This document shows, in pieces, positions 11,664-14,477 of a stretch of 49,699 nucleotides of DNA. Where the stretch lies: the NCBI RefSeq assembly GCF_003946405.1, contig NZ_RHOG01000018.1, positions 1-49,699 on the forward strand, given 5' to 3'. The DNA is from Lacticaseibacillus yichunensis. Lineage in GTDB: Bacteria > Bacillota > Bacilli > Lactobacillales > Lactobacillaceae. The first letter of the stretch is position 1, and every line of letters begins with the position of its first letter. The position numbers and the translations under genes are program-made. A model generated the notes under the pieces. The model saw only the letters and a program-made list of their open reading frames with translations, was not told where the DNA came from and did not search any database.

Positions 11664-13139
11664 TTAAGAATTTGCGAGCTTGTGAGCCGAGTCGGCGTTC
11701 GAGTCACCTCCTGGCACTGCCCCGCGTGCCTGCCACAACGGCACCATTTTCGCTAGCACCACCACGGCAATCAGCGCCAATGCGGCTGCGACCAGCATTG
11801 CGGTGTGCATGCCGGCGATGAACCACCCAGGCTGCGCGTTCGGAAACGTCACGATGCGCCGCCCCGCCACCGCGGACATGCGCGCAAACAAAATGGTCGA
11901 CGCGACACTGGTTCCTGCCACCATGCCTAAATTCCGCGCCAGCGCGTTGAAACTGCCGGCAATCCCCAACTCATTTTTCGGCACGACCGACATCACTAAG
12001 TCGCCGATCGGGGATTGGAAGATCCCGCTGCCGAGGCCCAAGACGATCACGACCGCAGCGAACCGCCATAATGGCGAGGCGGCGTCGACCAGCAGATACC
12101 CGGCGCTGCCGCCAGCGATCAGGGCTGCCCCGATCAGCGCCACTCCCGCCGCGTTGAACCGATCCGCGAGCCAGCCGCCTAGCGGTGCCGCCAGCGTCAT
12201 CATCAACGGATACAGCGTCAGGAGCGCTCCCGCCCCACCTGGTCCAAGTCCGCGCGCATCTTCTAGGTAAAATGGCATCAGCACGGTGGTGAAAAATTGC
12301 ACCATGAATACTAGAAAAACCGCCAGCACTCCGAGTGAAAACAGCCGGTTCTTGAAGATCGTCAGCGGCAGAAGCGGCCCCGGGTGCACGCGCTCCGTCA
12401 GCAGGAAAAGAATCAACGCGGCGCCTGCCACTAACAGGAGGGTGAGCACGATCGGCGACGAAAACCCGCGCGATTGACTCAAATTAAGGCCCCAAAATCC
12501 CGCGGCGATCGCGATGGCCTGGGTCAAAATGCCCAGCCAGTCAAGCGCTTTGGCCGCGGCCGCGCCAACCGCTGCCCCATTGCCCATCGCCCACACCGCA
12601 AGCGCCAGCGCGATCAGGCCAAACGGGACATTCAGCCAGAAGATCACCGGCCAGCTCGCCACGGCCAACACCAACCCGCCGACACTGGGCCCCGCCACCG
12701 CGCCCAGCGCGACAAAGGTGCCGACAAAGCCCATCGCCCGCCCGCGTTCCTTGGCCTCAAAGCTCGCGGTCACGATGCCATACGTATTCGCCAACGTCAT
12801 TGCTGCGCCAGTTGCCTGGACCACGCGCGCCGCCAGCAGGAAATAAAAGCCCAAGTTGATGCCCGCCATCACCGAGCCGAGGATGAAGACCGCCGTCCCC
12901 CATTTAAAAATACGCGGTTTGCCGATCAGATCCCCCATTTTTCCAAATGGCAGGAGCAGGGCACTGACCACGATCAGATAGATCGAAGTCGCCCACACCA
13001 TTTGGCTGGCCGGCACGTTCAGGCTCTTGGCCATCACCGGCACCGCGATATTCACCACCGAACTGTCCAGATTCGTCATGAAAGCGAAAAAGCCCAGCGC
13101 CGTCAGCGCCCACCAGCGCCGATCTGTGCGTACATCCAT
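11664..13139 (-). CDS. DHA2-family MFS multidrug exporter (EmrB/QacA type)
   Basis: This 491-residue proton-coupled exporter has about 14 predicted membrane spans. It shows the DHA motif NLDSSVVNIAVPVMAKSL in span 1, motif A GKMGDLIGKPRIF after span 2, and motif C-like GAVAGPSVGGLV in span 5. Length and topology match DHA2 drug exporters; substrates cannot be predicted. The start at 13139 follows AGGGGGAT; a longer frame upstream runs through the promoter. No regulator gene adjoins it, but an inverted repeat overlaps its -10. Confidence 0.9.
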   Translation of the reverse strand: MDVRTDRRWWALTALGFFAFMTNLDSSVVNIAVPVMAKSLNVPASQMVWATSIYLIVVSALLLPFGKMGDLIGKPRIFKWGTAVFILGSVMAGINLGFYFLLAARVVQATGAAMTLANTYGIVTASFEAKERGRAMGFVGTFVALGAVAGPSVGGLVLAVASWPVIFWLNVPFGLIALALAVWAMGNGAAVGAAAAKALDWLGILTQAIAIAAGFWGLNLSQSRGFSSPIVLTLLLVAGAALILFLLTERVHPGPLLPLTIFKNRLFSLGVLAVFLVFMVQFFTTVLMPFYLEDARGLGPGGAGALLTLYPLMMTLAAPLGGWLADRFNAAGVALIGAALIAGGSAGYLLVDAASPLWRFAAVVIVLGLGSGIFQSPIGDLVMSVVPKNELGIAGSFNALARNLGMVAGTSVASTILFARMSAVAGRRIVTFPNAQPGWFIAGMHTAMLVAAALALIAVVVLAKMVPLWQARGAVPGGDSNADSAHKLANS

Positions 13140-13161
13140 CGGAATCCCCCCTCTTCTTATG

Positions 13162-13188
13162 ATTATACGAGCGTTTGTGAAAACTCGT
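13162..13188 (-). promoter_or_regulatory. -10 box and overlapping inverted repeat of the exporter gene
   Basis: On the minus strand TATAAT lies at 13167-13162. Directly upstream is the imperfect inverted repeat ACGAG...CTCGT with inner GTTT/AAAC (13167-13188). The position fits a repressor site of TetR or MarR type, but the regulator is not visible. Confidence 0.4.
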
Positions 13189-13212
13189 TGCGATTTGGCT
13201 TGCAAGCTGAGT

Positions 13213-13430: not shown

Positions 13431-13967
13431 ATGGCAGAGATCGAATACGACGCAATGGGCGCCCATGAAGCGGAAGCAAAGGCATACTTTATTGAGCACT
13501 GGGGGTCCGACAGCCTGATCATCTCGGCAGGCGACTATCATTTCGACGACCTCAACGGGTTGGTCGCGCTGGAAGACGGGCAAGTGGTCGGCCTCCTCAC
13601 CTACGCCGTGCACGGTAATGCGATGGCCGTCGTCTCACTGAACTCAATTCGCAACGGCCGCGGCATCGGCAAAGAGCTCCTGGCCCTGGCAGAAGACATG
13701 GCCCGCGGACTCGGCGAAACGAAGATGATGGTCTCGATCATGAATGATAACATGCAGGCGCTCGGCTTTTTCCAGCGCCAAGGGTATCGCATGGCCAAGA
13801 TCTTGCGTGGCTCCCTGGACATGGCGCGCCAACGCAAGCCCGAGATTCCGCTAGTCGGCATGGACGACATTCCGCTTCACGATGAGGTCCTGCTGTCCAA
13901 AGTCTTGCCACAAGACGTGCCCCTCGATATTCCGCCAGTTCCGGTCACGCCGGAAAGCGACGACTAA
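13431..13967 (+). CDS. GNAT-family N-acetyltransferase
   Basis: This 178-residue protein has a GNAT fold over about residues 20-130. Motif A is SIRNGRGIGKELLALAEDMA, the acetyl-CoA pyrophosphate loop, followed by MVSIMNDNMQALGFFQRQGY, the motif B region found in small-molecule or amino-group acetyltransferases. The C-terminal 45 residues are acidic and probably disordered. The acceptor is unknown. The ribosome site is AAGGAAAGGGAT, and TATACT at 13391 is a likely -10. The next promoter starts 8 bp past the stop, so it is probably monocistronic. Confidence 0.85.
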   Translation: MAEIEYDAMGAHEAEAKAYFIEHWGSDSLIISAGDYHFDDLNGLVALEDGQVVGLLTYAVHGNAMAVVSLNSIRNGRGIGKELLALAEDMARGLGETKMMVSIMNDNMQALGFFQRQGYRMAKILRGSLDMARQRKPEIPLVGMDDIPLHDEVLLSKVLPQDVPLDIPPVPVTPESDD

Positions 13968-13974
13968 AACAGGG

Positions 13975-14003
13975 TTGTCCTGACGGCGCTTCCATGATAA
14001 GAT
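13975..14003 (+). promoter_or_regulatory. promoter of the SMR exporter leader
   Basis: TTGTCC (13975-13980) is followed by a 17-bp spacer and TAAGAT (13998-14003). It lies just past the GNAT stop and would start a leader of about 150 nt ahead of the SMR gene. Confidence 0.6.
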
Positions 14004-14007
14004 AACA

Positions 14008-14090
14008 GCATCACAGATAAACTATCGCCGGATAGTCAGCATCAGCGCCTTCCCTTAGGCTAAATGGGAAGGTGCTGATGCTATTTTTTT
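14008..14090 (+). ncRNA. RNA attenuator upstream of the SMR exporter, candidate guanidine riboswitch
   Basis: The leader holds hairpin P1 (ACTATC-GCCG-GATAGT, 14021-14036) directly followed by a 17-bp stem with one G-U pair (14038-14054 with 14066-14082, loop TTAGGCTAAAT), then seven T. That is a terminator in front of the coding region, behind its own promoter. GCC of the P1 loop can pair with GGC of the terminator loop, so a kissing-loop switch is possible. An SMR exporter gene follows. From memory this two-hairpin/terminator layout resembles guanidine-IV (mepA motif) riboswitches, and some SMR proteins export guanidinium. The alternative is that the hairpin is only the terminator of the GNAT gene. 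Confidence 0.5.
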
Positions 14091-14156
14091 GCGAAAAATC
14101 GCGGCGTGCATCGCTGCTCGGCGGCGTTTTCGGCGATGCCAAGAGGAGGAAATACA

Positions 14157-14477
14157 ATGGCTTGGTTCACATTGATTTTAGCGGGATTATTCGAATGTTT
14201 CTGGGCAACGATGCTCAAGCTCAGTCAGTGCTTTTCCGTGTTGCGCTTCTCGGTGCTCACGGTGCTCGGGATGATTGCGAGTTTTCTGCTGCTCGCCCAT
14301 GCGACACGCACGCTGCCCCTGTCGCTGGCTTACCCGATCTGGACGGGCATTGGCGCAGTGGGAGCGGTGCTCATCGGCGTCCTGTGGTTCGGCGACCGAC
14401 TGACGCCTGCCACGTGGTTCTTTGTGGCACTGTTGTTGATCGGCATCGTGGGCCTAAAGCTGGCGAGTCACGCCTGA
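14157..14477 (+). CDS. small multidrug resistance (SMR) family exporter, possibly guanidinium
   Basis: This 106-residue protein has four membrane spans. The essential Glu13 lies in GLFECFWATMLK of span 1, and PLSLAYPIWTGIGAVGAVLIG in span 3 is shown to mark the SMR signature. SMR dimers exchange protons for small cations; subtypes export quaternary ammonium compounds (Qac) or guanidinium (Gdx/SugE). I cannot separate the subtypes with certainty, but a single SMR gene behind an RNA attenuator favours the guanidinium type. The ATG at 14157 follows AGGAGGAAA; an upstream in-frame start at 14106 lies inside the leader. Confidence 0.88.
   Translation: MAWFTLILAGLFECFWATMLKLSQCFSVLRFSVLTVLGMIASFLLLAHATRTLPLSLAYPIWTGIGAVGAVLIGVLWFGDRLTPATWFFVALLLIGIVGLKLASHA

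Follow-up and report, generated by a model that had tools for sequence, protein, structure and literature searches.

A probable guanidine-IV riboswitch with a divergent second loop in front of a Gdx/SugE-type SMR gene of Lacticaseibacillus yichunensis

The window, the whole 49,699-nt stretch of Lacticaseibacillus yichunensis DNA that was analysed (contig NZ_RHOG01000018.1), contains an SMR gene preceded by a leader with a promoter-like sequence, a short hairpin and an intrinsic terminator (Table 1). The first-pass annotation had read this arrangement from the letters, and each of its elements was found in the sequence where it had been placed. The SMR gene most likely starts at ATG 14157 behind the AGGAGG, judging from the sequence, and not at GTG 14106, the listed start of the open reading frame. 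A GNAT acetyltransferase gene (13431-13967, plus strand) lies immediately upstream of the leader, and a divergent DHA2-type MFS efflux gene is located at 11667-13205 on the minus strand.

Table 1. Features of the SMR leader and gene (positions in the window)
Feature	Position	Strand	Basis
Candidate promoter TTGTCC-17-TAAGAT, TGN extended -10	13975-14003	+	Read in sequence; unchanged in sister species L002
P1 hairpin ACTATC-GCCG-GATAGT, 6 bp	14021-14036	+	Fold
Loop 1, GCCG	14027-14030	+	Fold
Kissing-loop partner GCC, loop 1	14027-14029	+	First pair never mismatched in 223 distinct sites
P2, intrinsic terminator hairpin, 17-bp stem	14038-14082	+	Fold; compensatory change in L002
Terminator stem arms	14038-14054/14066-14082	+	
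Loop 2, TTAGGCTAAAT (terminator loop also given as UUAGGCUAAAU)	14055-14065	+	Fold
Kissing-loop partner GGC, loop 2	14058-14060	+	Covaries with loop 1
Loop-2 variant stretch UAAAU-G	14061-14066	+	Comparison with Lactococcus leaders and 223 sites
U tract of terminator, seven T	14084-14090	+	Sequence
Ribosome binding site AGGAGG	14144-14149	+	Sequence
SMR gene, 106 aa, Gdx/SugE type	14157-14477	+	Pfam PF00893

The best NCBIfam match of the SMR protein is SugE, at 95.2 bits and thus under the cutoff of 126. Its closest relatives of solved structure are Gdx-Clo entries (8vxu, 99 bits; 6wk5, 98.7 bits over residues 1-104 of the window protein), whereas EmrE scores 36.8; from its near-identical alignment, 8vxu is presumably a Gdx-Clo mutant. 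Glu13, Trp16, Ser42, Tyr59, and Trp62, which hold or bind guanidinium in Gdx-Clo according to the excerpted source (PMC9574504), are all present. Because Trp16, Ser42, and Trp62 or their counterparts are partly found in Qac proteins too, the score gap between Gdx-Clo and EmrE carries more weight than the residue match. The protein, although diverged from Gdx-Clo in sequence, is most likely Gdx-like, with guanidine export as its probable, predicted function.

RNA spanning 14010-14092 folds at -39.8 kcal/mol, compared with -18.3 ± 2.9 kcal/mol for 200 dinucleotide shuffles, none of which folds as well (z = -7.3). The fold consists of the two hairpins characteristic of guanidine-IV RNAs, the second being an intrinsic terminator with a U tract; a single unpaired base separates P1 from the 17-bp terminator, and loop 2 is an open 11-nt loop. 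Another hairpin considered between the terminator and the start codon (14093-14159) was rejected (z = 0.48, and 0.05 in the sister species L002). The promoter elements TTGTCC (13975-13980) and TAAGAT (13998-14003), with a 17-nt spacer, share 8 of 12 bases with the consensus by hand count. A scanner that needs 9 of 12 found no promoter either in the leader or in the interval between terminator and gene, and the leader promoter is weak by both measures. Given these elements, the transcript would start near 14009-14011.

SMR orthologues (E ≤ 2.3e-31) are present in 20 of 30 genomes of the genus, and four more matches are distant paralogues. The two-hairpin leader precedes all 20 orthologues, 14 of them recognised by a strict scan and six by reading and a looser script and then confirmed by model; by strict scan and reading it is absent before all four paralogues. 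A model search located the motif in 21 of the 30 genomes, namely the same 20 and one at a contig edge, and nine genomes have neither motif nor orthologue. Rows for the paralogues (L021-L024) and for weak matches within their own genome (L026-L030) were excluded. The upstream GNAT gene occurs at only two of the 20 SMR loci, those of the window and L002, and the switch therefore belongs to the SMR gene; conservation of the hairpin with GNAT and not with SMR, which the first-pass annotation had named as refuting its proposal, is not what these loci show. A plasmid search returned 963 records, of which one matched at 60-80% identity and 962 lay lower. Near the SMR gene of another Lacticaseibacillus locus (L016, 357-537, minus strand), Rfam reports RefB11 (Enterococcus sRNA B11) at 145 bits.

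The proposed complementarity of the GCC and GGC loops is present, and the loops covary, contrary to another refuting outcome that the first-pass annotation had named. A MAFFT alignment of the 20 genus leaders shows every cell of P1 and of the kissing helix paired (100%), against 66.7% for the upper terminator, where this alignment is poor. For 98 distinct leaders from the genus, family, and order, aligned to fit the hairpins and not the kissing pair, the values are 99.6% for P1, 100% for the kissing helix, and 82.7% for P2. The first kissing pair in these leaders is A-U in 63, G-C in 27, and G.U in 8, and the covariation score is 0.630, compared with 0.236 for shuffles and at most 0.119 for slid structures. 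When loci were parsed by a script with no fixed base at the first loop-1 position or at its loop-2 partner, but with a preference for A or G at the former, 223 distinct sites gave 133 A-U, 77 G-C, 13 G.U, and no mismatch. These sites derive from 282 parsed loci out of 300 and include one misparse (L252); two of the 18 loci without a parsed motif (L121 and L126) had been parsed in an earlier scan, and 29 named SMR loci from distant groups (L300-L328) were omitted from the count. The two remaining kissing pairs show C-G throughout the 98 leaders, with four exceptions among the 223 sites, namely one U.G, two A-for-G replacements (L239 and L245, both Streptococcaceae), and the misparse L252. Because they hardly vary, these two pairs neither support nor refute the contact. 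The covariation-backed loop 1-loop 2 pseudoknot expected of guanidine-IV RNAs is thus found in this family of leaders.

These data bear on two other accounts of the element. One holds that it is a mere terminator of the GNAT gene beside a chance hairpin, with the SMR promoter further down. The terminator does lie about 70 nt past the GNAT stop codon and would end the GNAT transcript as well, and the weakness of the leader promoter is in keeping with such an arrangement. However, the constant association with SMR orthologues and the rarity of the GNAT neighbour, the loop covariation over 223 sites, and the empty promoter scan between terminator and SMR gene make this account very improbable. 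We give still less credence to the classical antiterminator of the first-pass annotation, in which an upstream AGCATCA would pair with the 3' arm of the terminator. The seven-base repeat is real, with copies at 14007-14013 and beginning at 14038, and in L002 the pairing would still be possible with one G.U pair. The upstream copy straddles the predicted transcript start, however, so that it is probably not wholly within the RNA, and in L002 both terminator arms have changed together (T to C and A to G, compensating each other) whereas the upstream copy is unchanged. AGCATCA is therefore unlikely to be an alternative pairing partner.

To place the leader in a class, a covariance model (R1) was built solely from the 20 genus SMR leaders. 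In the genome of L. yichunensis R1 detects one strong site (E = 5.6e-17; the next match has E = 2.3), and at E ≤ 0.01 it matches 85 of the 201 genomes searched in the family and 42 of 246 in the order, although a few of the weakest of these matches are probably false (four of the 18 loci without a parsed motif, L130, L131, L142, and L143, look like chance). The genes behind R1 sites mostly encode SMR proteins, with MATE (L083), B3/4 (L066 and L072), and GNAT (L113) genes at others; the SMR proteins downstream of 168 of 196 sites entered an SMR tree. A second model (R2), built from 99 leaders, matched 173 of 397 family genomes, from which 30 loci (some already in the set) and 52 stretches were taken, and added a PnuC-type transporter (L159) and further MATE-like genes in other families. 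Genes for sugE, MATE, PnuC, and GNAT proteins are published guanidine-IV targets (excerpts of PMC7736828 and PMC9788692), and B3/4 proteins are reported to be under guanidine-riboswitch control (excerpt of PMC10018355). The gene settings therefore coincide with those of guanidine-IV, the window contributing an SMR gene. Its GNAT gene also belongs to a published target type, yet precedes the switch.

Sequence kinship with a tested member is indicated by R1 matches to Lactococcus sugE leaders (L247, E = 3.2e-5; L250, E = 5.3e-5). The L250 leader is identical to that of L. cremoris L254, and the proteins of L254 and L247 share 93% identity. L247 agrees with the published L. lactis RNA (PMC7736828) at G62, U63, G66, U67, A71, and G72; it has seven U, and 31 bases past the start codon bring it to 147 nt, as in the published 95/147-nt construct. 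The only mismatch of L247 among the checked positions is the published U33, which is A in both L247 and L254. We infer that L247 is L. lactis itself. The window leader shares with the L. lactis sugE leader the two hairpins, the NCC/GGN loop-loop pairing, and a seven-U intrinsic terminator as second hairpin before an SMR (sugE) gene; it differs in its first kissing pair, which is G-C and not A-U, and in loop 2, where U replaces C68 and the place of G72 lacks an unpaired G.

Rfam includes models for guanidine-I, -II, and -III. None of the three matched the window at the gathering score or at E ≤ 10, no family reached the gathering score, nothing relevant appeared at E ≤ 10, and no riboswitch match of the guanidine-IV kind was obtained at the genus loci. 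The scan with a guanidine-IV model that had been suggested as a check thus returned nothing, an outcome that the first-pass annotation had counted as refuting, but the same copy of Rfam was equally silent on 15 relatives with the motif and on three Lactococcus loci, so its silence is uninformative. This copy seems to lack a guanidine-IV family and would overlook the class altogether.

Taken together, we conclude that the leader is very probably a guanidine-IV (GGAM-1/mepA) riboswitch that switches on a Gdx/SugE-type SMR guanidinium exporter by antitermination. The first-pass proposal of a guanidine-sensing switch stands in so far as a guanidine-IV-like kissing-loop RNA before the SMR gene is well supported; its alternative partner AGCATCA falls away, and so does the novelty it saw in joining guanidine-IV to an SMR gene. 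That link is already in print: guanidine-IV RNAs first came to light in front of sugE, which is also the gene they most often accompany (PMC7736828). What is new is the window member and, perhaps, the loop sub-variant described below. A search of one literature library found nothing on guanidine riboswitches in Lacticaseibacillus or on a solved guanidine-IV structure; the present comparison would add a Lacticaseibacillus leader and gene as a putative guanidine switch with a Gdx-type exporter.

Guanidine-IV is described, in excerpts of three reports, as an ON switch in which guanidine favours the loop contact and the full terminator is prevented (PMC7736828; PMC11611296; PMC12186494). By analogy, P1 and the top of P2 would form in the window RNA as the polymerase passes, and guanidine, when present, would stabilise the contact between loop 1 (GCC) and loop 2 (GGC). 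This contact would keep the lower P2 pairs open and allow read-through into the SMR gene, whereas in the absence of guanidine the 17-bp stem would close fully and end transcription. Since one nucleotide separates P1 from the terminator, a fully closed 17-bp stem would put loop 2 almost out of reach of loop 1, and the contact would therefore have to form while the lower stem is open. Such timing appears to fit the published timing model. Guanidine as the ligand, regulation in the ON sense, and the steric mechanism are all carried over to the window from the published members and are presumed to apply to it.

Loop 2 of the window reads AGGCUAAAU (pattern AGGCU-NAAU). In L. lactis numbering it retains G66, has C for U67 (offset by the G in loop 1) and U for C68, and carries U at the place of G72; the G that follows is base-paired within the stem in the fold. 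G66, U67, and G72 are given in the excerpted report as 97% conserved, each needed in mutants, and the L. lactis RNA with G72C no longer binds guanidine or switches (PMC7736828); the window departs from this consensus at two of the three positions, U67 and G72. For the first of these, a designed kissing pair of the G-C type restored contact in the C. botulinum RNA (excerpt of PMC11611296).

With the misparse excluded, U68 occurs at 16 of the 223 sites: the window, seven other leaders of the genus, seven other Lactobacillaceae SMR leaders, and one MATE leader of a distant family (L169). It is always accompanied by a G-C kissing pair. Of 180 sites with C68, 176 have G at position 71 or 72 and the other four at 73 or 74, whereas such a G is found at two of the 16 U68 sites, 15 of which have A at 71. 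After later loci were added the counts were 202 of 206 for C68 and 2 of 16 for U68. This pattern is suggestive of a paired change in sequence. On the tree of 168 SMR proteins the U68 label changes five times, two of these changes being forced by starred branches; there are five independent pairs, of which two lie on starred branches. With so few, significance is out of reach, and a test of the association has no power. Furthermore, since the spacing to the loop G varies from 71 to 74 among ordinary members, the window G at the next position could also be this G displaced by a single nucleotide.

A tentative reading, which we hold to be possible but on balance unlikely, is that the window clade is a natural pocket sub-variant in which C68 and G71-72 have been jointly replaced by U68 and A71 and whose altered pocket recognises guanidine or a closely related compound. 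Under this reading C68 and the loop G would interact, directly or through the ligand, and the rule of one indispensable loop G would be contradicted. Because no atomic guanidine-IV structure had been solved according to the excerpted 2024 paper (PMC11611296), the U68/A71 sequences would indicate partners in the pocket. The sub-variant would in any case be a natural test of which nucleotides form the pocket: guanidine binding would mean that the conserved loop G is dispensable in that setting, and absence of binding would make it a further ligand-shifted variant.

The latter outcome corresponds to a guanidine-IV-shaped RNA whose loop 2, with AGGCU-NAAU and no free G, has moved to another small cation that the pump exports too. 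The loss of binding and switching in L. lactis G72C speaks for such a shift, as does the recurrence of U68 with A71 at about 16 of 223 sites. A published precedent is Gd4v, for which a shift to another ligand was proposed in the excerpted source (PMC9788692): it has the same architecture, and it likewise deviates at the conserved loop G, its position D1 presumably corresponding to G72. However, the window fold lacks the added terminator hairpin that marks Gd4v, and the window precedes an SMR gene, whereas in the excerpt of that source Gd4v never stands before sugE (COG2076) genes. An SMR gene in fact follows 15 of the 16 U68 sites and a MATE gene the other, and the window protein keeps the guanidinium-site residues of Gdx. 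We consequently regard a changed ligand as improbable and retain guanidine as the likely ligand.

Guanidine-IV-like motifs were also seen in other settings. In two genomes each, they stand before a pyridoxamine 5'-phosphate oxidase-like gene (L161, scanned; L163, alike by eye) and a radical SAM gene (L177, scanned; L178, alike by eye), and these genes lie 37-40 nt past the stem of loop 2. An SfLAP (PF11139) membrane protein follows the motif in Lactobacillales outside Lactobacillaceae (L135, with L132, L137, and L139 by eye). In one Streptococcaceae genus (L233-L240 and L242) the motif precedes a gene resembling the B3/4 (CtdA-type) genes of L066 and L072. Two motif copies on the same strand, possibly tandem switches, occur in G1079:C199 (L335 and L338) and G519:C1 (L204 and L218), about 230 and 650 nt apart.
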